A stretch of DNA of 63,580 nucleotides from Nitrososphaerota archaeon. Its GTDB lineage: Archaea; Thermoproteota; Nitrososphaeria; Nitrososphaerales; Nitrosopumilaceae. Positions 7,529 to 63,533 of the stretch are shown here, one piece after another (the first letter of the stretch is position 1; each line of letters starts with the position of its first letter). The stretch covers positions 1-63,580 of the forward strand of contig JAGWFS010000009.1 of assembly GCA_028867785.1 (NCBI GenBank). Reading direction: 5' to 3'. The notes below the pieces were generated by a model that did not search any database, was not told where the DNA came from, and saw only the letters and a list, made by a program, of their open reading frames with translations. A program made the position numbers and the translations under genes.

Positions 7529-7711
7529 ATGGCAGAAAATTGGCTTAATGATAAAACAGTTGAGGCTCTTGTCAATGCTGGAATTGGAACAGCATTAATT
7601 CCTTCTTGGATGCAATATAATGCTGACTTCCAAAAGATTCAATTAGCTCATAAAGATGTAGAGATAGATTTTCTTAAAAAAGAAATTGTTAGGTTGAGGA
7701 ATGGGCAATGA
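7529..7711 (+). CDS. Small hypothetical protein with coiled C-terminus (60 aa)
   Basis: A 60-aa protein starting at the ATG at 7529 after GGAGGG. The N-terminal half is hydrophobic (LVNAGIGTALIPSWMQYNAD) and the C-terminus is a charged helix (VEIDFLKKEIVRLRNG), possibly a short membrane-associated coiled coil. It overlaps the kinase gene by ATGA. Confidence 0.7.
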   Translation: MAENWLNDKTVEALVNAGIGTALIPSWMQYNADFQKIQLAHKDVEIDFLKKEIVRLRNGQ

Positions 7712-8742
7712 AGATCTTTATTGTAGGAGACGTGGGCTGGGATACATATCTTATTGGGAAGGTGCGAGGACTTTCAGCTGAGGCCCCCATCCCTGTTGTG
7801 GATGTAACCCAACCAGAGACCCTGCCTGGAATGGCCGGAAATGTCCTAGCCAATGTAAGGGCCCTGGGTATTGATGCAGAAGTACTTCAACCTGAGGGAC
7901 AGAACTTTCCTTGGAAGTTCCGGCTAGTGACCCCTGAGGGGCATCAAATGGCCCGATTTGATTTCCAGGATTTCTGTAAGCCCCTTCAGAGGGCAGATCT
8001 ACTGCCCCTGATGGATGCAGATGCAGTGATTGTAGCGGACTATGGGAAAGGGGCTATTGACTCCACTATCACCTCGATACTTGCTGGAATGCAAGCTCCT
8101 TTGTTTGTCGATACAAAACGAGACCCCAGTCCTTGGCTCCAATCCAATGCCATCCTCTTTCCAAACCAGACCGAGTGGGACAAATACCAAGATAAATATG
8201 AATGGTTTCCCCGAGTAGTCCTCAAACAGGGCTCACAGGGAATGAGCTTTGTAGAGTATGGGAAGGTAGTTACTACCCGTTCCGCATGGGCCAAGCAAGT
8301 CCAATGTGTGAATGGAGCAGGGGACACAGTCATTGCAGCGTTTGCTACAGCATACCTTGGCCTCCAAAGCTCCATCCAACATTGCCTAGATGTGGCCTCA
8401 GCAGCCGCAGCCCTGGTTGTGGAGCAGGATTTCCTGCACCGCACCACTACAGGGGATAAGATTTACAGGAGGATTACCCATGAAGTTCCCGAAAAAGCTT
8501 ACCGTCCAGACCAAACACCTAGTCGGAGTATGCCTACTATTAGCCACGCTTGGCAGCTTGGGGTGGCAAGTTCGTTACCTCAGCAAGCAGTTGGAGAAGG
8601 ACGAGGCCCATATCGAGGAACTTCACCAGTGGGCAACACAGGTTACAGTAATGCTCAATTCGGCCCGACAGTAGGTTTGCCAGAGGATTACTGGGACAAG
8701 TTAGAGAAATCTCTAGAAGATCAATTCAAGTGGCAGGATTAA
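7708..8742 (+). CDS. PfkB/RfaE-like sugar kinase (HldE domain I type)
   Basis: The first about 255 residues form a ribokinase/PfkB-family kinase close to the HldE kinase domain, which phosphorylates D-glycero-manno-heptose 7-phosphate. Visible motifs: IFIVGDVGWDTYLIGKVRG, AEAPIPVVDV, a Gly-rich PGMAGNVLANVRALG, ADYGKG, and the catalytic NGAGDTVIAAFATAY. The nucleotidyltransferase domain of full HldE is absent. From about residue 258 the ORF overlaps the well-supported membrane gene at 8480-8674 in another frame and looks non-native, so the true stop may be lost. Possible partners are the SIS isomerase (50197) and GT9 transferase (20889). Confidence 0.8.
   Translation: MKIFIVGDVGWDTYLIGKVRGLSAEAPIPVVDVTQPETLPGMAGNVLANVRALGIDAEVLQPEGQNFPWKFRLVTPEGHQMARFDFQDFCKPLQRADLLPLMDADAVIVADYGKGAIDSTITSILAGMQAPLFVDTKRDPSPWLQSNAILFPNQTEWDKYQDKYEWFPRVVLKQGSQGMSFVEYGKVVTTRSAWAKQVQCVNGAGDTVIAAFATAYLGLQSSIQHCLDVASAAAALVVEQDFLHRTTTGDKIYRRITHEVPEKAYRPDQTPSRSMPTISHAWQLGVASSLPQQAVGEGRGPYRGTSPVGNTGYSNAQFGPTVGLPEDYWDKLEKSLEDQFKWQD
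8480..8674 (+). CDS. Embedded small membrane protein (possible spanin or holin-type)
   Basis: A 64-aa protein with an AGGAGG site seven bases before its ATG, lying wholly inside the kinase ORF in another frame. It has a basic N-terminus, one TM helix (HLVGVCLLLATLGSLGW), then a charged coiled-coil-like tail (YLSKQLEKDEAHIEELHQW). This N-in, helix-out layout is typical of phage inner-membrane spanins, and lysis-type genes follow at 9736. A short TTG frame (8677-8742) continues after its stop and shares the kinase frame. Confidence 0.65.
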   Translation: MKFPKKLTVQTKHLVGVCLLLATLGSLGWQVRYLSKQLEKDEAHIEELHQWATQVTVMLNSARQ

Positions 8743-10361: not shown

Positions 10362-10553
10362 ATGCCGCGTTGGTTACAAATTCTGTTACAGATTCTTGCT
10401 ACTGGTGCTGGGGCTTATGCCTCTTATAGTACTGGTACACCCCTACCCCTCGTGGTGAGTGGTGGAGCAAATGCTGTGATTGGTGGAATTGCCCAATCCT
10501 ATAACACGGATGGGACTCCGCAGGCTCAGCCCTTCGTTCCCAAAGCCAAGTAA
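10362..10553 (+). CDS. Small membrane protein, candidate holin
   Basis: A 63-aa protein with an amphipathic start (PRWLQILLQILATGAGAYAS) and a second Gly/Ala/Val-rich hydrophobic stretch (PLPLVVSGGANAVIGGIAQS), then a short polar tail. Size, hydrophobicity and position beside a muralytic gene fit a holin or antiholin, though the segments are weak. The stop and the next start share TAATG. Confidence 0.55.
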   Translation: MPRWLQILLQILATGAGAYASYSTGTPLPLVVSGGANAVIGGIAQSYNTDGTPQAQPFVPKAK

Positions 10554-11110
10554 TGGATGTATTTGAACAATTAGACCGGGAGTATCCATCCCAGACTCAC
10601 AAGTTGGATAAGTTCAAGGAGTTGTTTGATCCACTGGTACCTGGAGATTTTGCTGAGTTTGGAGTCTATAATGGGAATGGGGCAAGGGAGTTGGCCTCTC
10701 TTGATCCCTCCCGGACTTGTTGGGCCTTTGATACCTTTGAGGGAATGCCCCAAGAGGATTATAGTGGGGATGAAGATAGTTCAGATCCTCCCGGTAAGTG
10801 GAAACCATCCGCAGAGCCTGAGGCCCTCTTCCACGGAATCCCTAATATCACAGCAATCAAGGGGCGTTTTGTAGATACACTAGGCCTAGTGAATGATGAA
10901 GTACACTTCTCCCTCGTCCATGTAGATTGTGATTGGTATTGGAGTCATCGCCAAGTCCTGGAATTCCTAGAGTCACACCTCAACCATGGAGCAAAGATCG
11001 TCTTTGATGATTGGACATTGGCTGGGGCTAAACGGGCCATTCAAGAGTGGCGGGACCGAGTAGGCCCCAAAGTGAAGGGTGAAGGAGAAGTACTAGTGTG
11101 GGTAGGGTAA
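10553..11110 (+). CDS. SAM-dependent methyltransferase, TylF/MycF-like
   Basis: A 185-aa class I methyltransferase: GDFAEFGVYNGNGARELASL is the SAM-binding motif I, followed by WAFDTFEGMPQEDYSGDED, FSLVHVDCDWYWS (acidic motif) and AKIVFDDWTLAGAKRAI. These are hallmarks of TylF/MycF macrocin O-methyltransferase-type enzymes, which methylate sugar hydroxyls with a metal ion. It may modify a glycan together with the other sugar enzymes. It sits inside the split terminase and overlaps the nuclease half by 13 bases. Confidence 0.85.
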   Translation: MDVFEQLDREYPSQTHKLDKFKELFDPLVPGDFAEFGVYNGNGARELASLDPSRTCWAFDTFEGMPQEDYSGDEDSSDPPGKWKPSAEPEALFHGIPNITAIKGRFVDTLGLVNDEVHFSLVHVDCDWYWSHRQVLEFLESHLNHGAKIVFDDWTLAGAKRAIQEWRDRVGPKVKGEGEVLVWVG

Positions 11111-50129: not shown

Positions 50130-50200
50130 GAGATTTTTATCTCCAAGTCCTGTTCAAGTTGGGTGAAAAGTTGGAGGAATTTTTCTCCGTAGGTTGTCAC
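49982..50200 (-). CDS. Small helical protein (72 aa)
   Basis: A 72-aa protein starting at GTG in a GTGA overlap with the isomerase, with GGAG nine bases upstream. Helical: EKFLQLFTQLEQDLEIKISW and QYHQGYINALKDTLDFMKVL. The final 20 residues after this helix look less natural, supporting the frameshift idea noted for 49947-50129. Confidence 0.6.
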   Translation of the reverse strand: MTTYGEKFLQLFTQLEQDLEIKISWLSKQDLTLAQHQYHQGYINALKDTLDFMKVLVDGHGKPQSLLKLTNK

Positions 50201-50766
50201 TGCACTTTTCTCCTGTCCATAAGGTAGTAGCAGATCATATGGAGTACTACTTGGTGCCCGTCTTGGGATACACCCATGTGGTTGGTGGGGATGTTGATAT
50301 GAATAGCTGAATGGAATCCTGCCACCCCTCCAGGTACAGATTTACATGTATTACCTGTAACTGCAATTACAGGGACTCCATATTTAGATATATGACAGTA
50401 CATGCGTTTAATAGCCTGAACAATATTACTCGATGTGCCACTACCAGAAATGGCAATAATTAAGTCTCCATTTCTAGCCAAAAGCTCAAGCTGCTTTTGG
50501 AATACCCGACCAAAATGGAAATCATTTGCGTAGGTAGTGATTGCTGCCACATCAGTCAATGCAATAGCCCTCTTCCCCACAAGTTGGAGGTCTGTGGCCA
50601 TATGACTGGCAAGGGCAGCCGAGCCCCCATTCCCAATGAGCCAAATGGTGCCCCGGCAGTTGGAGATAAGATCTATTGCCTCTTTGACCTTGTCCAAATC
50701 TACCTTTGATATAGCACGGGCAAGGTCTCTCATGTAGTCCGAAGCAAATTCTTTAAAGAGTTTCAT
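50197..50766 (-). CDS. SIS-domain phosphosugar isomerase, GmhA-like
   Basis: A 189-aa protein; the ATG at 50764-50766 overlaps the upstream stop. It has the sugar isomerase fold of phosphoheptose isomerase: TIWLIGNGGSAALASHMATD, YANDFHFGRVFQKQLELLAR, GDLIIAISGSGTSSNIVQAI and a C-terminal SQDGHQVVLHMICYYL. GmhA converts sedoheptulose 7-phosphate to heptose 7-phosphate. One active-site Glu of GmhA appears replaced in the SHMATD helix, so a related substrate is possible. It matches the kinase at 7708 in pathway logic. Confidence 0.8.
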   Translation of the reverse strand: MKLFKEFASDYMRDLARAISKVDLDKVKEAIDLISNCRGTIWLIGNGGSAALASHMATDLQLVGKRAIALTDVAAITTYANDFHFGRVFQKQLELLARNGDLIIAISGSGTSSNIVQAIKRMYCHISKYGVPVIAVTGNTCKSVPGGVAGFHSAIHINIPTNHMGVSQDGHQVVLHMICYYLMDRRKVQ

Positions 50767-50960
50767 TTGTGACTTCCCCAAGTCTCCTTGTAGTATTGGG
50801 CTGTGGCTTTGGCTCGACCCTCCCGGATGGCATCCATGAGCCAAGTTAACTCATGCCCATCGGCCCTGATCTCCACCCCATACCCGGTAGTCTCGGGCCA
50901 AGGGTCTCCAACATACCAGGTCCTAGCCTGGGCATCTTTGTATCCTTTGATTGTAAGCAT
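50763..50960 (-). CDS. Hypothetical protein, possibly extended through an upstream TAG
   Basis: A 65-aa protein starting MLTIKGYKDAQARTWYVGDP with a GGAAGG site. The same frame is open and coding-like upstream: 17 codons (TALLQDLFPKNVSHGRP) back to a TAG at 51012-51014, then 41 more codons (WTGWYTALGGEGFLGDRYAG and onward) to the stop of the upstream gene. The annotated start may therefore be only the remnant of a longer gene. No family recognised. Confidence 0.65.
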   Translation of the reverse strand: MLTIKGYKDAQARTWYVGDPWPETTGYGVEIRADGHELTWLMDAIREGRAKATAQYYKETWGSHK

Positions 50961-52355: not shown

Positions 52356-52793
52356 CTAGCATGCCACATAACTTGAGGGCTTAGGTGCTTTCTCTGTTAT
52401 GTAGGGACTAACAATTTTCCAGTCCGGGCAGGCCTTGATAAAATGGTCAAAACTAATGGCGTAGTCCAAATTGTGGGGGAAGGAGGACCAATTCCAGAAC
52501 CGATCCCCATCAGAGATATAGATCCTTGTAGAAGTAGGCTCGTCAATGTAGACCTTTCGGGCATACAAACGAAGCTCAATAGGGATATACCATTCCTTAA
52601 TATCGTGGCGGTTCTTGAGTTTGGGAACCATAATCACTAGGACCTTCTTCCCCGGCTCCCGACAATTTTTGCACATGGTCTCCTTCTTCCACTGATATCC
52701 CCAAAGCCGCTGCATATCTGAGGGGGCAGGTTGGACACCACACTTCTGGCATCTCTTAGAGATGCACTGGACTAAGGCTGTTTCTTCAGGCAC
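52356..52793 (-). CDS. Hypothetical protein with zinc-binding N-terminus
   Basis: A 145-aa protein from the GTG at 52791-52793 (GGAGG four bases upstream); a TTG at 52841 would add 16 residues. The N-terminal third has CISKRCQKCGVQPAP and TMCKNCREPGKK, a zinc ribbon; the remainder alternates strands (KVYIDEPTSTRIYISDGDRF, NLDYAISFDHFIKACPDW). Next to the ATP-grasp gene, so possibly part of the ligase island. Confidence 0.65.
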   Translation of the reverse strand: MPEETALVQCISKRCQKCGVQPAPSDMQRLWGYQWKKETMCKNCREPGKKVLVIMVPKLKNRHDIKEWYIPIELRLYARKVYIDEPTSTRIYISDGDRFWNWSSFPHNLDYAISFDHFIKACPDWKIVSPYITEKAPKPSSYVAC

Positions 52794-52960
52794 AGGACCT
52801 CCAAAATTTTGTGAAAAATCTTTAACATTAAAGAACCTCAAGGAATGTAACCTTTTGGAACTTTTGAGCGTCTTTACTTTTGCAAAGCCAAAAGCGGAGC
52901 AAAAGGAAGTTCAAGGGGAGGGTCTACCCTCTTGCTTGATATCCATCAACACACTGGGTT

Positions 52961-53668
52961 TCATTTGGGTGTATTACTGATTTTACCATTGGCCTTCTTG
53001 GCCTCCCTCTTCACCCACCGCTGGATGGCCTGTACATAAGCCCCCAGTGTATGCTCATCCCTCAAAGACGGGGCGCTGTTCACTTCAAGAACATACAGCT
53101 TCCCATCCCGCCCTTCTAGAATATCCACAGCCCCTCCAAGGTACCCTACCGATGTTACGGCAGCTTTTGAGAGCTGCCTAATTTGATCGGTAAAAGGCTC
53201 ACTTGGAGATTTGAAACTGTAGTCAATTGTCCATCCATTGTTTCGGGACCGGACCAAGTTCTTTCTCCATGACTCCCCTGTGTGGGCCTTCTTTCCTATC
53301 CTAATAGCCCGTCCATCCCATACATGTTGACGATACTCAGCTACAGAGTCAATGACCTTTACCCAGAAGTCCCGCTGGGTCCATTCCCTATTCCATCGCT
53401 CGGCTTTGTATCCTGGACCAATGATGTCACTCCCGTGAGTGTGATGGAGTCGTCTCCCAAAGACCTTAACTCCAGCACGGACCCATTTCTTAGCCTGAGC
53501 AAGATCACTTGTCCACTCGGGACATGCAATGTGGGAGGCTGTGAAAGTTCTAAGTTGAGTAAGTCCATCTTTAGCTCCTTGGCCCCACCGGAGGTCTGGG
53601 CCTGGGACATCTTTGAGGGCCTCCGCTAGAGCGTGTGTGGAAGGCCAGTTTGGTCCTGTGACTTTCAT
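52961..53668 (-). CDS. ATP-grasp ligase of the amidoligase island
   Basis: A 235-aa protein related to phage ATP-grasp enzymes: RAGVKVFGRRLHHTHGSDII, DFWVKVIDSVAEYRQHVWDG, RAIRIGKKAHT and, near the end, GGAVDILEGRDGKLYVLEVN followed by SAPSLRDEHTL. The ExN at the end binds metal-ATP. Such enzymes join a carboxylate to an amine via an acyl phosphate. It lies with amidoligase and amidotransferase genes, as in phiEco32-type gene clusters. Substrate unknown. Confidence 0.8.
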   Translation of the reverse strand: MKVTGPNWPSTHALAEALKDVPGPDLRWGQGAKDGLTQLRTFTASHIACPEWTSDLAQAKKWVRAGVKVFGRRLHHTHGSDIIGPGYKAERWNREWTQRDFWVKVIDSVAEYRQHVWDGRAIRIGKKAHTGESWRKNLVRSRNNGWTIDYSFKSPSEPFTDQIRQLSKAAVTSVGYLGGAVDILEGRDGKLYVLEVNSAPSLRDEHTLGAYVQAIQRWVKREAKKANGKISNTPK

Positions 53669-53669
53669 T

Positions 53670-54266
53670 TCAGTCTACCTCATTTGCAGCATCATAGATA
53701 TTGAGGTCTGCTGTGACCACAGCAGTGGGGACCTCCTCCTCCTCAGGGTCTACTGGAGGATCATTCTTTGAGCAGCGGGTCTGGACTGAGTACTTTTTGA
53801 TCTTGAGTTTGAGCCCACCAGGAATTCGATTGGTGTTGTCAATCTGCTGGGCAAGGGATCTTAAATTGCCTGCCGTAAGATTGGGCATTCGATAGATGGC
53901 TCCCTCACAAATTCCACAATGGGCCGTGGGTTTCCATTGAAGCTCTGGGCGGTAAGGGTAGTCGGGGTCCATTTTTGAGGCCAGCCAATGAAATAATTCT
54001 ACCTTCTCCCCATTTCCTTTGAAATGGAATTGGACGTGGGCCTCTTTGGGAGGTCTTTGAAGGACTTCTTCACTCATCTCTTTGATCCTTTCTTTCTGTA
54101 GGGCCTGTTCAGGGTACCAAGCATGCCAACCCATCCCATCTACATCTAATGCATAGACTCCATAACCGGCCCGTTTGATCCTGGCCCATTTAGAGTGTGG
54201 GAGGTTGGGGAAGTTCCTCAGCCCTGACTTATCAATCCAAACACGATCCCCCTCTTCAAAGGGCAT
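53670..54266 (-). CDS. Hypothetical protein between the ligase and amidotransferase
   Basis: A 198-aa protein: an SH3/KOW-like start (FEEGDRVWIDKSGLRNFPNL), a beta middle (VQFHFKGNGEKVELFHWLAS), then AHCGICEGAIYR and LKLKIKKYSVQTRC. The acidic tail VDPEEEEVPTA could be a substrate or tag-like segment, but that is speculation. Tight spacing on both sides puts it in the island's transcript. Confidence 0.6.
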   Translation of the reverse strand: MPFEEGDRVWIDKSGLRNFPNLPHSKWARIKRAGYGVYALDVDGMGWHAWYPEQALQKERIKEMSEEVLQRPPKEAHVQFHFKGNGEKVELFHWLASKMDPDYPYRPELQWKPTAHCGICEGAIYRMPNLTAGNLRSLAQQIDNTNRIPGGLKLKIKKYSVQTRCSKNDPPVDPEEEEVPTAVVTADLNIYDAANEVD

Positions 54267-54267
54267 C

Positions 54268-55182
54268 TCAGTTCACCCCAACAAGGGCTTTCTTTGTGGC
54301 ATTGAATTGGGATACCAAGTCATTGAAGCAGCCGATGCATAGTACGTGAGTCTTACTACTTACCTTTGTGTTTCCACACTTTAGACAATAACTGTCTAGG
54401 TCGTTTTTTAGGCTGGGTCTTACAGGGCCTCTGCCGCAATACCCGTACTCGCCTTGATAGGGTATAGCTACTAACTGAGAAAAACGAGGACCAAAAGGGA
54501 AGCGTTGCTCACCCCTCCACATAGTTATGGCACCAGTATCATTTGGGGCAAACCAGTAGGGATGCTGCTCATCCAAAGTGTAGAAGGCCTTTACAGGATT
54601 GCCAAAGAGTTTGGCGATAGTCCGGATGGGGGCCATCTCTGAGGCAAAGACCCACTCGCCTTGTTCAAGTTGGGCCACATCCAGATTGTTGGAGTTGAAT
54701 CGGGTGAGATGGAGGACCTGGCCAAATTTGGGTGTGGTTTCCCACCATGCAAGATTTCCCCACCCTTCAATGTCAGACCAGGGCTTTCCCTCTGCAAGGT
54801 GCATCCAAATGTGCATAGAGTCCACTTCACAGGACCGGCTGTATTTCCTATTGAGGGCATCATGATTGTGGAGGCAACCATTGTGGATACCGATGATCCA
54901 ACTCCCGTCCTCTTTTTGATAGCTGAAAGGATGGGCATTCTCTACCTTTCCCTTCTCTCCACAAGAGGCTCCACGGGTGTGAAAGATTCCCTGACTCCAA
55001 TCCTTGGTGGTTTGGAAGGACTTGTCCCAAGTGTCAATGAGTTCTCCAGTGTATCGGAGAACTGTTTGGCCATCACTACATCCCCATGCATCCCGACCAC
55101 GGCTTTGCATGACCATACCCAGATATGGGAGCATGGCCCGGACTGAGGGGGTGATTGTTGGACTACCAAAGATTCCACACAC
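54268..55182 (-). CDS. Class II glutamine amidotransferase
   Basis: A 304-aa Ntn-hydrolase starting at GTG so that Cys2 is the nucleophile (MCGIFGSPTITPSVRAML). Other motifs: MVMQSRGRDAWGCSDG, GIFHTRGASCGEKGKVENAH and GIHNGCLHNHDALN (oxyanion and substrate Asn/Gly). It releases ammonia from glutamine. A C-terminal zinc ribbon is added (YCLKCGNTKVSSKTHVLCIG-C). In the island it could feed ammonia to a ligase or hydrolyse an amide. Confidence 0.9.
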   Translation of the reverse strand: MCGIFGSPTITPSVRAMLPYLGMVMQSRGRDAWGCSDGQTVLRYTGELIDTWDKSFQTTKDWSQGIFHTRGASCGEKGKVENAHPFSYQKEDGSWIIGIHNGCLHNHDALNRKYSRSCEVDSMHIWMHLAEGKPWSDIEGWGNLAWWETTPKFGQVLHLTRFNSNNLDVAQLEQGEWVFASEMAPIRTIAKLFGNPVKAFYTLDEQHPYWFAPNDTGAITMWRGEQRFPFGPRFSQLVAIPYQGEYGYCGRGPVRPSLKNDLDSYCLKCGNTKVSSKTHVLCIGCFNDLVSQFNATKKALVGVN

Positions 55183-55183
55183 G

Positions 55184-55426
55184 TTAGTTAATCCCTTTCT
55201 GCTTTCTTTTCAATACCTTCATACATGAGCAGTTCTCATCGTCCCATACCCAAACTTGTTTGCGGATCAGAATTGATCCACCTCCACCACAGATCTTACA
55301 GTGAGGATTGGGATCTTTGAGATCAGTGAGTGGGGTGTTGTCGATTTCTTCTTTGTAACACTTGAGACATTGGCCATCGGGCCGGGTGGTTACCTTCCCA
55401 CAGTCATAACAGTGTTTAGTCTGCAT
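55184..55426 (-). CDS. Zinc-ribbon protein (80 aa)
   Basis: An 80-aa protein with three Cys pairs: HCYDCGKVTTRPDGQCLKCY, HCKICGGGGSILIRK and ENCSCMKVLKRKQ. It overlaps the amidoligase stop by 11 bases and ends before the amidotransferase start. It may be a partner or a small-protein substrate of the island. Confidence 0.75.
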   Translation of the reverse strand: MQTKHCYDCGKVTTRPDGQCLKCYKEEIDNTPLTDLKDPNPHCKICGGGGSILIRKQVWVWDDENCSCMKVLKRKQKGIN

Positions 55427-56702
55427 GTCCTCTCTCCTTCAATGTCTTATACACCCAATCCCTTACGGGTTGGGGCAAAGTAATGACTCGACCCGGCCTA
55501 CACCACTCTCCATCCACTAAGGCCTGCCAATGCCCTAGTCTGGAGATCTCAGTCTCAGTGAGGACTGAGGCCAACTCCGTAAACCAGCCACACCACAAAG
55601 GCCAATAGAGGAGTTTATCCAGGGCCACTGTCCCTTCATGATGCCGGTACTCTACTGTATGGCGTTGAAAGTAGGTGTGAAGATTGAGACCATAGTACCT
55701 ACATGCTTCATACTTGTGGGCTGCAAGGGTCCGCATGGACTGATATCCATGAGCCCGAGTTCTGTACTTATCCGACAGTTCCATCGGCCACACAGAGTAG
55801 GAATGACCACCATTGAAAATGGTTTTGGCTTTGCCGTGGATAGTACTCGCCCTGTTGTTACTTATGTGAGGGCTGATATTACCCCGATAAAGGGCCTCCA
55901 CAATAGCCCTCCTAATTTTACTGGGCTCGTTCAAGTCCTCAAATTTGTCCATCCACCCCTTGGGAAACAGTCCATTGGTCCACCGCTTAGCATAGTACTT
56001 TCTTTCCCCTCGATGTTCTCTCCACCCATCTCTTCCCTTAGCCACAAGCTGATAGAAAAGGTCCTCAAACTTGGAGTAGAGGAGGACCAGCTTTTTGAGT
56101 TGGGGTGCTCCCCAATCATCCACTCCCACATGGACATGCAGCCCACAAGACTGGTCAGTCTTAAAATCATATCTAGCAAACTGTCCTGCCAGGGCAGTGA
56201 TACCCCGAATAAAGTCATCCCCCACCAATCGGCCTAGGACCAACTCTTGGCCACCAGCAGTGATGGAGCCGTCATGTTCCCAGGAGTAGTGGACATAGCT
56301 GGGAACCTGGATTTGAGTTGCTCCGAGATAGGATACCTCAATTTCTAGACCCAATGTTCTGGGCAGGGAATTTATCTCCATTGTACTTAGTGGAGGGAGG
56401 TCCCGACCTTTGGAAGGTCTTTTCCTACAGGTGCATGTATATTCTATCAGCCCATCTGGGTTGTGTCTACGACAATGTTTACATATGGTACAAAAGTACT
56501 TTGGATGGTGCCGGACAAGGCGGTCCTCATTTATTACTCTATACCCGGCAGCATTGAGTTTGGTGGGGGAGCAATTGTAACAATCCTGGCAGATACATCC
56601 ACAGTGGGCTTTGCACCGCCTACACTCTAGGCAGCCCTTGACATTGAGAGCCCGGCAGGCCACACAATTGATAAGACCCGGATCTGGTTTGGGGAAGTTC
56701 AT
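55416..56702 (-). CDS. Amidoligase (COOH-NH2 ligase) with N-terminal zinc cluster
   Basis: A 428-aa protein. The first 100 residues hold many Cys (NCVACRALNVKGCLECRRCK, CGCICQDCYNC, FCTICKHCRR). From about 108 it is a glutamine-synthetase-fold amidoligase (PF12224-like): RTLGLEIEVSYLGATQ, YSWEHDGSITAGGQELVLGR and DQSCGLHVHVGVDDWGAPQL, with a later TVEYRHHEGTVALDKL. Those residues bind Mg-ATP. It should form amide or peptide bonds. It overlaps a 23-aa micro-gene by ATGA. Confidence 0.85.
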   Translation of the reverse strand: MNFPKPDPGLINCVACRALNVKGCLECRRCKAHCGCICQDCYNCSPTKLNAAGYRVINEDRLVRHHPKYFCTICKHCRRHNPDGLIEYTCTCRKRPSKGRDLPPLSTMEINSLPRTLGLEIEVSYLGATQIQVPSYVHYSWEHDGSITAGGQELVLGRLVGDDFIRGITALAGQFARYDFKTDQSCGLHVHVGVDDWGAPQLKKLVLLYSKFEDLFYQLVAKGRDGWREHRGERKYYAKRWTNGLFPKGWMDKFEDLNEPSKIRRAIVEALYRGNISPHISNNRASTIHGKAKTIFNGGHSYSVWPMELSDKYRTRAHGYQSMRTLAAHKYEACRYYGLNLHTYFQRHTVEYRHHEGTVALDKLLYWPLWCGWFTELASVLTETEISRLGHWQALVDGEWCRPGRVITLPQPVRDWVYKTLKERGHAD

Positions 56703-56770
56703 TGTTCGCTACGCTCACAAAGTTCAATGATCTTGTAGTGCTTGGGCCACCATTCATTGAAGGCCTTCAT
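56699..56770 (-). CDS. 23-aa micro-protein coupled to the amidoligase
   Basis: ATG at 56768-56770, TGA at 56699-56701: MKAFNEWWPKHYKIIELCER and three more residues. GGAGGAGAAAGGG directly precedes it, and it overlaps both neighbours (TAATG and ATGA). Too short for usual gene finders, but the junctions make translation likely. It could be a leader for coupling or a peptide substrate of the adjacent ligase. Confidence 0.6.
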   Translation of the reverse strand: MKAFNEWWPKHYKIIELCERSEQ

Positions 56771-56940
56771 TACCCTTTCTCCTCCTCTGTGAGGGCCCGG
56801 AGGTGACACTCACAGATCTCTCTACAGTTCTCCAGTCTATAGAGCCACTGCCCGTACCAGGAATAGCTGAGGACTCGCTGGTAGCCATGGATCTTGGTAT
56901 GGACTACTTGGCCGGGCCAGAACTTGTGGGGAGGTCTCAT
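56770..56940 (-). CDS. Small protein with aromatic core (56 aa)
   Basis: A 56-aa protein: KFWPGQVVHTKIHGYQRVLS, YSWYGQWLYRLENCREICEC and an acidic end. The pattern is familiar from small phage proteins of unknown role and probably folds as a small beta barrel with Cys ligands. It is coupled to both neighbours. Confidence 0.7.
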   Translation of the reverse strand: MRPPHKFWPGQVVHTKIHGYQRVLSYSWYGQWLYRLENCREICECHLRALTEEEKG

Positions 56941-57113
56941 AGGCCCTTCACAACTCCTAAGGTCTTACGAGAACTTGCGGGATATATGTGGTACTTAGAA
57001 ATACGGGCCTCAATAATCAAGAACAATGCCTCCTCCTCAGTTTGATCTTTGTGTAGAGAGCACTCTGTAGAGGTGTATTGCAACCAAACATCGTAAAGTT
57101 CATCCAAAGGCAT
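56937..57113 (-). CDS. Small helical protein (58 aa)
   Basis: A 58-aa protein from the ATG at 57111-57113 behind AAGGAT: MPLDELYDVWLQYTSTECSL, then EEALFLIIEARISKYHI and a basic tail. It overlaps the next gene by ATGA. A longer upstream start would run through the zinc gene at 57119 in the wrong frame. Confidence 0.65.
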   Translation of the reverse strand: MPLDELYDVWLQYTSTECSLHKDQTEEEALFLIIEARISKYHIYPASSRKTLGVVKGL

Positions 57114-57118
57114 AGTGG

Positions 57119-57301
57119 TTATCCTTCTTGATCCATAAAACCTATGCAAGAGCAGTCCTTGCAATGACAAACTGCAAACTGGCCCGGCTTTAGGTGACGA
57201 GCTAGGTATCCACCAGTACAGCACCGGCCAGGTCTTGGACATCTATGGTCAGTCCAACTGTGGTTGCAGCGAAGGCAAATAGAACTGGAAGGCCTCCCCA
57301 T
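57119..57301 (-). CDS. Zinc-ribbon micro-protein (60 aa)
   Basis: A 60-aa protein with CLRCNHSWTDHRCPRPGRCC and FAVCHCKDCSCIGFMDQEG: at least eight Cys and two His. AGGGGGATAG upstream of the ATG belongs to the repeated word described at 57307-57327. It is inside the ligase island. Confidence 0.7.
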   Translation of the reverse strand: MGRPSSSICLRCNHSWTDHRCPRPGRCCTGGYLARHLKPGQFAVCHCKDCSCIGFMDQEG

Positions 57302-57306
57302 AGCAT

Positions 57307-57327
57307 CTATCCCCCTAAAAATCCCTT
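57307..57327 (-). repeat. Repeated word AGGGATTTTTAGGGG(G)ATAG, copy 3
   Basis: On the minus strand this reads AAGGGATTTTTAGGGGGATAG, spanning the stop of the gene at 57315 and the ribosome site of the gene at 57119. Near-identical words occur at 51081-51100 (minus) and 36875-36896 (plus). Each lies at a gene boundary. It may be a promoter, processing or binding site. Confidence 0.5.
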
Positions 57328-58229
57328 CCCCTTGCGTGGGCCTTCAAGACCTTCTTTTCTTGGAGGATCTTAGCCGGGTCTCCCCATGGGCTTAACTGTT
57401 GGGCAATCGTGGCCTGCCAGGCCTCCTTATCCCACTGTTTGAGAAATCCCAGGGCCTTGGCATGTGCTAGGAGTTCTTGTTGTTGAGAGGTAGTGCCCAA
57501 GCTCCTATCTGCCAATCCCTCATTTAGTTGCCTGAGAAACAGATATGCATTATCTGCTGAATAGGACAATGGGCTCTTTCTGTAGCCTATAAGTTGTTTA
57601 GCTCGTTCATTTACCCATGTAGCTAGATCTCTATTAGGCTGAACCTTTTGCTTTGTTAGATCAATTACTAACCAATTAGAGTGTATCCCTACACCTTGTG
57701 GGAAGGATGAATATAAACCAGTACTAAGCACCCCGGTAAGTTCCAGAGTCCGACCAATAATGTTTTTCCCATTTGAGAGGCTTCTCCCCACCAAATCCCA
57801 TCCAAAAGGATAAAGAGCCAATAGCCCCTCTGTTGTGAGGAGCCAGCCAAGAAAGTGATCTGCTATCACCAGGGAGTCAATTTTATATTGTTTGTCAGGA
57901 ATGGTCCTTATCAGGGAAGGTAGCAAAGCGGCTGCCCCATTATCCCAGTATTGAAAACGCCCAGTATAACGGGTTCTTAAAGCCACTATCCTACAGTGGC
58001 GGCAATACCTCCCTTGTACTACTACCTGTGAGCGGACTTCTTCATTAATTTGGAGTAGGGGTCTGCCACACCGTCCACACCGACCATACCCCCATCCCTG
58101 AAGAAAGAACAATTCATCTGCCCAATTCCGTTTGGCCTCCAATAGGAGACCAGTGTCAATCCCACCACCAGTCTCCTCAACAGAGATGACAGAAGTGTGG
58201 TCAGAGTTAAATTTGATATCCCAACTCAT
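57315..58229 (-). CDS. Unknown protein coupled to the second amidoligase (304 aa)
   Basis: A 304-aa protein with a zinc ribbon at about 50-80 (YGRCGRCGRPLLQINEE, YCRHCRIVALRTRYTG). Downstream it has alternating strands and helices (HFLGWLLTTEGLLALYPFGW, HSNWLVIDLTKQKV) and no motif I know. It overlaps the amidoligase at 58226 by ATGA, as a partner or substrate carrier would. Function unknown. Confidence 0.65.
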   Translation of the reverse strand: MSWDIKFNSDHTSVISVEETGGGIDTGLLLEAKRNWADELFFLQGWGYGRCGRCGRPLLQINEEVRSQVVVQGRYCRHCRIVALRTRYTGRFQYWDNGAAALLPSLIRTIPDKQYKIDSLVIADHFLGWLLTTEGLLALYPFGWDLVGRSLSNGKNIIGRTLELTGVLSTGLYSSFPQGVGIHSNWLVIDLTKQKVQPNRDLATWVNERAKQLIGYRKSPLSYSADNAYLFLRQLNEGLADRSLGTTSQQQELLAHAKALGFLKQWDKEAWQATIAQQLSPWGDPAKILQEKKVLKAHARGRDF

Positions 58230-58990
58230 AGCTCACCCTCCTTGGCCAGCCAAGGTACCAGTACTGGGAACCTTTTGGGATGCTTACAAAGGAAGTCCTT
58301 CAGTGACTGAACCGTAAGGGGATCTACCTTCAATTGAACCGCCTGCACCAGGGCTGCCACAAATTCCAATCTAAGCATAAATTCCTGGTAGTCCAAGGTA
58401 GCGGCAAAGAGTCTCACCTCCACCGTAGCGGAGGGAGTACAATTCACCGCCTCATACTTACCCTTGGCCGTGGCCTCATTCACTGAGATCTCAGGCTTAA
58501 TGAGCCTACATGCATGGGTGTTAAAATCCCTCCCCGCCAATTTGACTAACCATTTTGCCCCATCCCCAGTACATCCTCTAGTTCCATCTGAGGCCCCCCG
58601 TTTGGTCTGGGAGTTAATAAAATTATGGATTTGCCATACTTGATGCCGGGTGAGATCCTTTCGGGTGAAGTGTACATGCATCCCGTCCCTGTCTCTCACC
58701 ACAAAATCCTTGGGTATACCTTTGAAGAACTTCTTCCATCTGCTTCGATGGACCTGAAGGGAGGCAGGGTGGGTGACTATCTCCACTCCACTAATAGACC
58801 CGTCATGCTTGAAATAGACTAAATCCCCAAGCAAGTCCTGAACCTTACTTGCAGGCCTTACAGAATCCCCATCCCCCATCCACCCTTCAATATCCAACTC
58901 TAGCTCCACTCCGAGGTACACCCCGAGATAAGGTGTACCAAAGAACTTGGCCGGGGGCTTGTAGGAGTGGGAGTAAATTGTGATGCTCAT
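58226..58990 (-). CDS. Second amidoligase-like enzyme
   Basis: A 254-aa protein from the ATG at 58988-58990. It follows the amidoligase pattern of the enzyme at 55416: GVYLGVELELDIEGWMGDGD, FKHDGSISGVEIVTHPASLQ, DFVVRDRDGMHVHFTRKDLT and later TVEVRLFAATLDYQEF. Conserved acidic residues and the HxHF segment fit Mg-ATP binding in the glutamine-synthetase fold. It is more diverged than the first. Confidence 0.75.
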   Translation of the reverse strand: MSITIYSHSYKPPAKFFGTPYLGVYLGVELELDIEGWMGDGDSVRPASKVQDLLGDLVYFKHDGSISGVEIVTHPASLQVHRSRWKKFFKGIPKDFVVRDRDGMHVHFTRKDLTRHQVWQIHNFINSQTKRGASDGTRGCTGDGAKWLVKLAGRDFNTHACRLIKPEISVNEATAKGKYEAVNCTPSATVEVRLFAATLDYQEFMLRLEFVAALVQAVQLKVDPLTVQSLKDFLCKHPKRFPVLVPWLAKEGEL

Positions 58991-58994
58991 TGAC

Positions 58995-59456
58995 CTAATC
59001 CACCTTAAAAGTCTTAGTTGTGGTGACAACCTGTTTTAGATCAATATAGGCCAGCACTAAAGGATTCCCTGTCTTCTTATTGACCATAGGCTTAGACAAG
59101 ATGTATCCAGCCTTTTGAAGATCCTCTAGAGCCTCTTGACTGGACTGTAACAAACTGAGCATGAGTGTGGCATATCCAGCCTTTTTAGCTGCATCAAAGA
59201 CAGCGATCATTGTTGAGTACCAGGACTCTCGTCCCCCATCAGGCCTCACATAATAGACTACAAGGATTCCACAACATCCGGGTAGTGGTCTGGCCCTAAA
59301 TGAGATCAACCGCTTGGGTTTAGCCCCAACTTTCCAGTACTCATACTGGTACTCGGTAGAATCATCTGAGTACTTAACAGGACTGACTCGAAGCTGCCCT
59401 GGTCCTTTAATTAAGTATAGCTCAGATGTGAAATTGTTTGCGTGTACGGCACCCAT
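58995..59456 (-). CDS. Putative acetyltransferase-like partner (153 aa)
   Basis: A 153-aa protein from the ATG at 59454-59456 with AGGAGG four bases upstream. Strands GCCGILVVYYVRPDGGRESW and a helix IAVFDAAKKAGYATLMLSLL, then SSQEALEDLQKAGYILSKPM-V, recall the end of a GNAT fold, a class known in amidoligase clusters. The acetyl-CoA loop is not clear, so the call is tentative. Confidence 0.5.
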   Translation of the reverse strand: MGAVHANNFTSELYLIKGPGQLRVSPVKYSDDSTEYQYEYWKVGAKPKRLISFRARPLPGCCGILVVYYVRPDGGRESWYSTMIAVFDAAKKAGYATLMLSLLQSSQEALEDLQKAGYILSKPMVNKKTGNPLVLAYIDLKQVVTTTKTFKVD

Positions 59457-59475
59457 AGATCCTCCTACAAGGGCG

Positions 59476-60825
59476 TCAGCCCATGGCCACCATGGTCTTT
59501 GCCTTGAATTCCTGGGCACAGAGAGAGGCCATCATTTGGGGATTAAAACTAGTACTAGTCAGCCCCCAATTCTTTGTCATATCCAATTCAATGAAATCCC
59601 TAATCCCCTTCATTAGGAGACCGTCAAAGATCCGTTCAAAGTAGTGAGGAGGTAGGGGAAATGTGGGATAATACCTTCCCAACAATCCCTGCATCAATCG
59701 TTGATTCCTTCTAAGAGCCACCCGTGCCCCATCCACATCCAATTCATTGATAATATGAGTGGTCTCATCCTCAGAACCCTCCCACAAGGTATCCAACCCG
59801 TGCATAGCCAATTGGCAACCAGCCCGCACAAAGTCCAGATGGATATAGGACAGGGCGGGGTGCCACAGGGCAGCAGAGGAAATCACCCGATATTCAAGCC
59901 CATGTGATGGGGTTCGATATTCCCCAGCCAATCCATAGTACTGACGGCGGATGGGGTCCTCAAGTCCCTCCAGGAGAGACACCGAAAGAACTCCACCAAT
60001 GTTGTCCATGGATTTGACTAGGCGAACTGGGTCTTTGTAGAGTGTGGTGCCCACAGCACCTGAGTAGACCTTCGTTGCATGATGAATATGAAACCCAGCA
60101 AACCGAATGGGGAAGTCTCGGCCCTCACTCACTACCTGTCCCTTATGCCCGTAGGCATTCTTGGATGGAGCACAACCTAGAGCCACATGCTCCTCAGAGG
60201 CTTTATCCATAACATTTTTGGGTACTAGCATGGTTGGAGCCCCAACCAGGCTAGAGTCCTTCAAGTGTTTTTTGGCTTTCTGGTGAAGTGCCACCAACTT
60301 GCTTCTGATGTTATTAGTAAGGACTACATGGCAAGTAGCAGGATTGACTTTGAACTCTGCCTGAAAGCCGTCCCAGTAAGGACTGCTATCCCAGATGGCC
60401 TCCTTTTCAGAAGGTAGAAAGTCAAATGCAGGCACTAAAGTCCCAGTTTTGTTGACTACAAATACCTCAGGGTCGGAGCCAATGGTCATAGTAGCTTCAA
60501 GATCGCAGTGGGATTGAGGAAAGTCCTTCTTACTCTCTTCAATTAGTTTTGTGATTGGGGAATCATCCTCCACAGGCTGAAGAACCTTCTCAAGCTCCTC
60601 CAATGTACGAGGGAGAATGCTGAAATTCTTGTTCAGTCTCGCATCTTTCTGTAGACTAAAAAGCGTAACGTGTTGGAGTTTTACAGCTCTGCTTGGACCT
60701 CCACTGTAATCAACATAGGGATAGTCCTTTACTGAAGTAGGCCGTATGTACGAGCCTTCTATCAGCATGTATCCAACAGGGTCCTGAAAAGTGGCAGTCA
60801 CCTCGTACCACTGATTGAGCTTCAT
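59476..60825 (-). CDS. phiEco32-like COOH-NH2 ligase
   Basis: A 449-aa protein from the ATG at 60823-60825 behind GGGAGA. After a 110-residue N-terminal region it shows the phiEco32-type ligase pattern: ATMTIGSDPEVFVVNKTGTL (DPE), YWDGFQAEFKVNPATC, RFAGFHIHHATKVYSGAVG and YRTPSHGLEYRVISSAALWH. These residues form the Mg-ATP pocket of the glutamine-synthetase fold. Third ligase of this superfamily in the island, and the largest; it may form peptide bonds on a protein tail. Confidence 0.85.
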   Translation of the reverse strand: MKLNQWYEVTATFQDPVGYMLIEGSYIRPTSVKDYPYVDYSGGPSRAVKLQHVTLFSLQKDARLNKNFSILPRTLEELEKVLQPVEDDSPITKLIEESKKDFPQSHCDLEATMTIGSDPEVFVVNKTGTLVPAFDFLPSEKEAIWDSSPYWDGFQAEFKVNPATCHVVLTNNIRSKLVALHQKAKKHLKDSSLVGAPTMLVPKNVMDKASEEHVALGCAPSKNAYGHKGQVVSEGRDFPIRFAGFHIHHATKVYSGAVGTTLYKDPVRLVKSMDNIGGVLSVSLLEGLEDPIRRQYYGLAGEYRTPSHGLEYRVISSAALWHPALSYIHLDFVRAGCQLAMHGLDTLWEGSEDETTHIINELDVDGARVALRRNQRLMQGLLGRYYPTFPLPPHYFERIFDGLLMKGIRDFIELDMTKNWGLTSTSFNPQMMASLCAQEFKAKTMVAMG

Positions 60826-62946: not shown

Positions 62947-63102
62947 TCACAACATCTCCAATGTCCTCAGCCGATCCCTCAGCCCTCTCCAGCACCGTTG
63001 ACACAGGTCATGATCCGGCCTAGAGAGGATCTTGTGTTGCCTGAAAATCCTTCCCCGTAGGGTGGTGAACAGGGCCTTCCGCCCACAGGTTTGACAGGTC
63101 AT
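62947..63102 (-). CDS. Zinc-ribbon micro-protein (51 aa)
   Basis: A 51-aa protein: MTCQTCGRKALFTTLRGRIF and DLCQRCWRGLRDRLRTLEML, two C-x2-C pairs. The ATG at 63100-63102 is preferred. Its leader is a copy of the one before 63330-63533, but a 190-base hexamer array separates the ribosome site (GAGGAAGG) from the ATG, so translation could also start upstream and run through the array. Confidence 0.65.
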   Translation of the reverse strand: MTCQTCGRKALFTTLRGRIFRQHKILSRPDHDLCQRCWRGLRDRLRTLEML

Positions 63103-63103
63103 A

Positions 63104-63292
63104 TAGACCCAGACCAAGAAGACCCAGACCCAGACCAAGACCTAGACCAAGACCCAGATAAAGACCTAGACCTAGACCTAGACCTAGACCAAGACCTAGA
63201 CCAAGACCCAGATAAAGACCTAGACCTAGACCTAGACCAAGACCCAGACCAAGACGACCCAGACCAAGACCTAGACCAAGACCCAGACCCAG
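63104..63292. repeat. Hexamer microsatellite-like array
   Basis: About 190 bases built from 6-base units of the form AGACCN (AGACCT, AGACCC, AGACCA with some changes). Within it a longer block with AGATAAAGACCTAGACC occurs twice, so duplications are nested. All six frames are free of stops through most of it: one strand reads as Asp-Leu/Asp-Gln repeats, the other as Gly-Leu, Gly-Ser/Trp-Ser or Val-Trp repeats. It lies between a duplicated leader and the ATG at 63102. Confidence 0.9.
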
Positions 63293-63330
63293 ACCTTCCT
63301 CTATGTTTCCTACCCATCCTACTTTCCCCC
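63286..63330 (-). promoter_or_regulatory. Duplicated leader, copy A
   Basis: This 45-base segment is identical to 63536-63580. On the minus strand it carries GGGGAAAGTAGGATGGG and the ribosome site GAGGAAGG. Both copies lie just upstream of small genes, and the 17 bases at the start codons (TCATATAGACCCAGACC) also match, so the whole leader was duplicated and copy A was then split by the hexamer array. Confidence 0.75.
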
Positions 63331-63533
63331 TATCGGGCATGTCTCATATGAGCAGGGAACCCTCCCCGCTGGTAGTCCCTGTCAATGGCCTTCAGGGCTT
63401 CTTGATTGACCTGAAAAGTCATATGGGCCTTAACTTTATCTGCTAGGGTCATTGGTTTATCAAAAGTGGGGTCGTGGAAGATAACCCGTACTGGCCCATG
63501 TCCCCGATGTCCTACATCAATGTGACGGCTCAT
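63330..63533 (-). CDS. Small hypothetical protein (67 aa)
   Basis: A 67-aa protein: MSRHIDVGHRGHGPVRVIFH, then DKVKAHMTFQVNQEALKAID and a basic end. The ATG at 63531-63533 follows the intact leader copy with GAGGAAGG about 12 bases upstream. No family recognised. Confidence 0.7.
   Translation of the reverse strand: MSRHIDVGHRGHGPVRVIFHDPTFDKPMTLADKVKAHMTFQVNQEALKAIDRDYQRGGFPAHMRHAR

Follow-up and report, generated by a model that had tools for sequence, protein, structure and literature searches.

The window analysed here, a stretch of 63,580 nucleotides (contig JAGWFS010000009.1 of GenBank assembly GCA_028867785.1, filed under a Nitrososphaerota archaeon), carries between positions 60825 and 52961 a leftward gene island that is, on well-supported grounds, a real enlarged variant of the phiEco32/LUZ24-type phage amidoligase module. 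It combines three ligases of the glutamine synthetase (GS) fold with a class II glutamine amidotransferase (GATase), an ATP-grasp ligase, a GNAT-related protein, Cys-pair proteins and two orphans. Modules of this kind are already known, from the annotation of LUZ24-like phages and from phiEco32 in 2009; this copy is a variant with two Amidoligase_2 genes, of two lineages, and without a recognisable gamma-glutamyl cyclotransferase. A start-site scan placed the genes close together, with small gaps or overlaps, and this tight order with start-stop overlaps fits a single operon. All open reading frames (ORFs) named in an earlier note on this DNA are present where it had placed them. Designated by their lower coordinate, the genes are:

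59476..60825, minus strand: type-2 phage COOH-NH2 ligase (PF14395), GS fold; ATG at 60825 preceded by GGGAGA
58995..59456, minus strand: GNAT-related protein with PGCCG and N..TGN motifs; ATG at 59456 preceded by GGAGG
58226..58990, minus strand: Amidoligase_2 protein, 254 aa, of the lineage found in two-gene amidoligase-GATase systems
57315..58229, minus strand: orphan protein, 304 aa, with CxxC pairs (ORF)
57119..57301, minus strand: Cys-rich small protein, 60 aa (ORF and sequence alone)
56937..57113, minus strand: putative 58-aa ORF (start-site scan alone; ATG at 57113 preceded by AGAAGGA)
55416..56702, minus strand: Amidoligase_2 protein (PF12224, E = 1.9e-17) with Cys-rich N-terminus, full-module lineage
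55184..55426, minus strand: 80-aa protein with CxxC pairs (ORF)
54268..55182, minus strand: class II GATase (GATase_6, E = 1e-7) with Cys2 nucleophile and C-terminal Cys-pair extension
53670..54266, minus strand: orphan protein, 198 aa, between the GATase and ATP-grasp genes (ORF)
52961..53668, minus strand: R2K/RimK-type ATP-grasp ligase (phrog_2599, E = 1e-25)
52356..52841, minus strand: 161-aa Cys-pair protein, DUF7685-like (PF24734, E = 0.0018, below the cut-off)

The last of these lies 119 nt downstream of the ATP-grasp gene, and its membership of the island is uncertain. A promoter scan returned a number of sites no higher than expected by chance.

The island contains everything by which the module is recognised: a PF14395 ligase, at least one Amidoligase_2 protein (here two), a Cys2 class II GATase and an ATP-grasp ligase. 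The earlier note had proposed a phiEco32-type module with three ligases, and this is borne out by family matches, by intact catalytic and ATP-binding residues in 59476, 58226 and 55416, and by recurrence in other loci (below). 59476 matches PF14395 (E = 3.7e-7, above the cut-off) and phrog_3815 (COOH.NH2 ligase; E = 1e-25), and in an alignment of ~100 homologues it retains the GxDPE, AE, HxH and EYR positions, reading GFH where homologues usually have GGH; a PDB sequence search with this ligase gave nothing meaningful. Since 58226 scored below the Pfam cut-off for Amidoligase_2 (E = 0.019), a clean Amidoligase_2 profile was built leaving out both 58226 and 55416, and it matched 55416 at 8.5e-30 and 58226 at 5.5e-18; 58226 also matches phrog_16683 and phrog_22302 (E = 6e-19 and 1e-18). 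The GxExE, D.S, E, HxH, N and ExR residues, invariant or nearly so across the family, are present in both proteins (in 58226, G27xE29xE31, D63, S65, E70, H105xH107, N183 and E191xR193, numbered from 58990, the more likely start). An AlphaFold2 model of 58226 (pLDDT 73, pTM 0.74; residues 132-176 unreliable) has the ligase fold, with YbdK (1tt4/1r8g) as best PDB match, followed by Dop, with PafA lower down; the GS fold of 55416 and 59476 is assigned from family membership.

The Cys2 GATase and the ATP-grasp ligase of the earlier note are confirmed too. 54268 also matches phrog_4736 (E = 7e-15) and keeps the class II residues C2, R28, H68/R70, H84, H100-N101-G102 and D121-S122. In 52961 the ExR, K, D and ExN residues are kept (E111xR113, K127, D182, E195xN197); phrog_2599 is labelled 'S6 glutaminyl transferase', and its match to R2K_3 is below the cut-off (E = 0.0009; 19.9 bits against 26.3).

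A profile-guided scan of viral contigs yielded 79 loci which, together with loci from phage records, gave 63 non-redundant loci besides the window (64 with it). The type-2 ligase is present in 60 of the 63, a frequency that is uninformative because this ligase was the bait; the other counts are lower bounds, flanks being short in some loci. GATase genes were found in at least 54 of the 63 loci, ATP-grasp in at least 47, Amidoligase_2 in at least 43, gamma-glutamyl cyclotransferase in at least 34 and a phrog_4877/11055-type protein in at least 32. The last two were not treated as defining the module, the cyclotransferase on the ground that almost half of the loci lack it. The commonest order, seen in 10 loci, is ligase, phrog_4877/11055-type protein, amidoligase, GATase, ATP-grasp, cyclotransferase. 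The window retains the ligase, amidoligase, GATase, ATP-grasp succession; no phrog_4877/11055-type protein was found in it, and the slot between ligase and amidoligase is held by the GNAT-related protein. The island is not a chance assembly of genes: the bulk of its set is found again, with the order mostly kept, in the majority of the other loci.

Of the 64 loci, the window alone has two Amidoligase_2 genes. In the Amidoligase_2 tree 55416 falls inside the full-module clade, grouped with L034/L035 and L004, whereas 58226 lies outside it (89% support), among the amidoligases of Marvin, MEP402, AR1086-1 and ctgrD200; these different positions indicate that the two did not arise by recent duplication. 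Searches of viral contigs with exact peptide patterns found no close relatives of 55416, 54268 or 58226. Three GS-fold ligases occur in other combinations in 6 other loci, 5 of which have three type-2 ligases.

The same families occur in several known systems. In the LUZ24-like phages UFV-P2, PaP3, PaP4, tf and LUZ24 the module shares the type-2 ligase, amidoligase, GATase_6 and ATP-grasp genes with the window, co-directional and near replication genes; in UFV-P2 it comprises ORFs 21-29, just before the primase/helicase, in an order corresponding to the commonest one above (PMC3890496). LUZ24-like modules have one Amidoligase_2, a cyclotransferase and, separating the ligase from the amidoligase, a conserved protein, whereas the window has two Amidoligase_2 genes, lacks the cyclotransferase and has added orphans. 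In the phiEco32-like phage KBNP1711 (Gordonclarkvirinae; gp080-gp089) the enzyme families lie on a single strand, also in the commonest order; its ligase is ~26% identical to that of the window, but it differs in having a GATase of 627 aa, an ATP-grasp protein of 405 aa and a cyclotransferase. Four IMG/VR loci (L021, L029, L030, L033) resemble the window in that GATase and ATP-grasp genes accompany three GS-fold ligases in a similar order, but all three ligases are type-2, against one type-2 and two Amidoligase_2 in the window. 58226 is near the amidoligases of the two-gene systems of mycobacteriophage Marvin (gp105-106), OM43 phage MEP402 (gp06-07) and ctgrD200 (L003, L005, L112), each of which has a GATase neighbour; no type-2 ligase or ATP-grasp gene was detected in the stretches fetched around them, and their amidoligase ORFs are ~540-550 aa, compared with 254 aa for 58226.

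The sequence establishes the gene identities and active-site residues; the reactions, their order, the substrate and the end use are inferences. Class II GATases free ammonia from glutamine via an N-terminal Cys, and GS-fold ligases operate through acyl phosphates. The reading we favour, with slightly better than even confidence, is that the island encodes an ATP-dependent pathway of amide ligation, fed by glutamine and expressed together with the replication genes. The GATase would cleave glutamine at Cys2 and supply ammonia to the GS-fold ligases, or itself act as an amidotransferase; the GS-fold ligases would use Mg-ATP to turn a carboxylate into an acyl phosphate and then form an amide bond; and the ATP-grasp ligase would append a further amino acid by the same chemistry. 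What results would be a small peptide-like compound or conjugate, either amidated or gamma-glutamyl, produced as replication proceeds and serving to alter the host. The existence of a two-gene amidoligase-GATase core beside the larger module with ATP-grasp and cyclotransferase genes suggests a GATase that supplies a GS-fold ligase, with further ligases lengthening the product. The same core is indicated by the pattern of change among modules, in which the cyclotransferase, ATP-grasp and phrog_4877-type genes can be lost and parts can be doubled or swapped. Cyclotransferase and C26-type genes elsewhere hint at gamma-glutamyl intermediates in those loci.

Several points weigh against this pathway. 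The comparison loci were fetched mainly by ligase matches, so that a GS-fold ligase is present in them by construction; no gamma-glutamyl cyclotransferase, an enzyme that elsewhere suggests gamma-glutamyl chemistry, was recognised in the window (hmmsearch --max on ORFs of 50 aa or longer; lowest E = 3.2); no report of biochemistry was found for any module member; and the locus shows no obvious substrate gene or target. A more specific form of the pathway, which we regard as doubtful, would have it a merger of a two-gene amidoligase-GATase pair and a full type-2 ligase/ATP-grasp module of differing descent, sharing the single GATase and without the gamma-glutamyl removal step, with orphans 57315 and 53670 as specific partners and a product unlike that of known modules. 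The window's sole GATase stands several genes from 58226. Phage amidoligase modules have been under discussion since 2009 and are common in tailed phages, and no report naming the product was found; culturable phages with minimal (Marvin, MEP402) and full (LUZ24-like, KBNP1711) versions make the question directly answerable.

The structural matches of 58226 bear on what the ligases might act upon. YbdK, Dop and PafA share a GS-like fold with the model, at a distance (TM-score ~0.3-0.4, 11-15% identity). YbdK is a small-molecule ligase, and its place as best match argues against protein tagging, in which the ligases would couple single amino acids or a non-ribosomal peptide to a protein of phage or host and which we consider unlikely; the resemblance to Dop and, lower down, to PafA speaks for it. 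R2K ATP-grasp enzymes are moreover predicted protein-peptide ligases, phages included (PMC4431377; PMC7824862), and tagging of this kind stands near the analogies with R2K enzymes and pupylation that have been published. No tag peptide was found in the island and none of its ORFs has the Pup-like Gly-Gly-Glu/Gln ending (one of the 1241 small ORFs has a loose G[GA][QE] ending, and it lies in another part of the window), and no target gene is conserved in the module across the loci. The earlier note had envisaged the three ligases assembling, in order, a branched or extended peptide tag; with neither precursor peptide, Pup-like tail nor target protein found, this exceeds the evidence. The number of ligases says little alone because six other non-redundant loci also have three of the GS fold, and 55184 and the orphans have no detectable counterpart in related modules.

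The glutamine-fed amide-ligation pathway would still leave several end uses for its product, of which surface modification for superinfection exclusion is the leading guess, though itself less likely than not: the product would be added to the host envelope. Passages in PMC10580990 and PMC11318856 that discuss the phiEco32 module, citing Iyer 2009, attribute to that work the proposal of an altered cell surface that keeps competing phages from infecting. Three genes elsewhere in the window encode proteins that could modify sugars, and possibly represent a heptose or sugar pathway carried by the phage:

50197-50844, minus strand: GmhA-like sedoheptulose-7-phosphate isomerase (SIS), below the NCBIfam cut-off
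7708-8742, plus strand: protein resembling the heptose-7-phosphate kinase domain of HldE, below the NCBIfam cut-off
10553-11110, plus strand: TylF-like methyltransferase

Against a role at the surface, these sugar genes lie away from the module, which is co-directional with replication genes, and nothing inside it was recognisable as a transporter, membrane or envelope enzyme.

Of 53 loci with a GATase, 25 have a primase/helicase or polymerase gene on the strand of the module, usually no more than ~5 kb downstream. This adjacency fits expression of the pathway with replication genes and also favours intracellular counter-defence or nucleic-acid modification, in which the product would decorate DNA or nucleotides or block a defence signal. 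Such a use seems quite unlikely, given that the annotated ORFs showed no base-modifying partner such as a thymidylate synthase or base hydroxylase and that the texts reached by a literature search included no paper joining 'hypermodified' with 'amidoligase' and no such link. Auxiliary nitrogen metabolism, by which the genes would improve host use of glutamate and ammonia, is very improbable. It has been claimed for phage ZRK32, which has a similar gene set, on the strength, in the sections available, of growth effects and not of enzyme assays (PMC10945688); a type-2 ligase was found in ZRK32 by sequence search. That account leaves three different ligases and an ATP-grasp enzyme unexplained.

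Among the remaining island proteins, 58995 (for which a start at 59456 is better) had been called GNAT-like. Alone it has no family match in Pfam or PHROGs. Homologues occur in 8 other non-redundant loci, mostly with an RGKGxG acyl-CoA loop, and 58995 is related to GNAT through such distant homologues only: it reads PDGGRESW at this position, and the Q/RxxGxG/A loop is not conserved. Small proteins with a CCG motif lie near other type-2 ligases (L025:15087-17270, L020:13157-14144, L024:14193-14726, L048:11612-12139), often with a C-terminal N..[ST]GN, and are GNAT-like, in part without the acyl-CoA loop. A GNAT identity for the phrog_4877/11055-type proteins was rejected, their conserved pattern not being that of GNAT. 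The Cys pairs are the sole basis for the zinc-ribbon assignments of 55184, 57119 and 57315; 55184 has no family at a useful E-value (Pfam, PHROGs), 57119 has no homologue in the module loci, and 57315 is better described as an orphan, with no homologue in Pfam, PHROGs, phages, viral contigs or module loci and an unusable single-sequence structure model (pLDDT 38). 53670 has no family match and no homologue in the module loci.

Other variation was seen among the comparison loci. Peptidase C26, a Pfam match in L040, was considered as a cyclotransferase substitute and rejected as a clean swap, because 10 of the 18 loci with this family keep the cyclotransferase too. L022, L023 and L025 (IMG/VR, >430 kb) are of jumbo-phage size and have a long cyclotransferase-like protein along with 2 or 3 copies of the type-2 ligase, with neither GATase nor ATP-grasp gene in the flanks fetched. 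A conserved Cys-rich protein of ~185 aa (cluster c26) lies upstream of a second type-2 ligase in 10 loci (L020, L024, L028-L033, L036, L037).

The first 77 bases of the window are identical to the last 77, which fits circularity, and the window is probably a circular, complete tailed-phage genome of ~63.5 kb (48.5% G+C). It encodes a terminase, a portal and a tail protein with an SLT transglycosylase, together with a DNA polymerase, an exonuclease, a DUF3987 primase-type protein, a Sak4-like protein and a PD-(D/E)XK exonuclease; structural genes run rightward, and the island and replication genes leftward. The assembly holding the contig includes a gene for archaeal-type RNA polymerase subunit N, the SLT transglycosylase is of a type that degrades bacterial cell walls, and a search of 100 related genomes turned up no portal relative; the contig may be mis-binned and the host bacterial. 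Nor did 100 genomes related to the bin yield a type-2 ligase. Adjoining the genome's joining point, short tandem repeats at 63091-63351 contain several open frames encoding Asp-rich, Gly-Leu or Ser-rich repeats.

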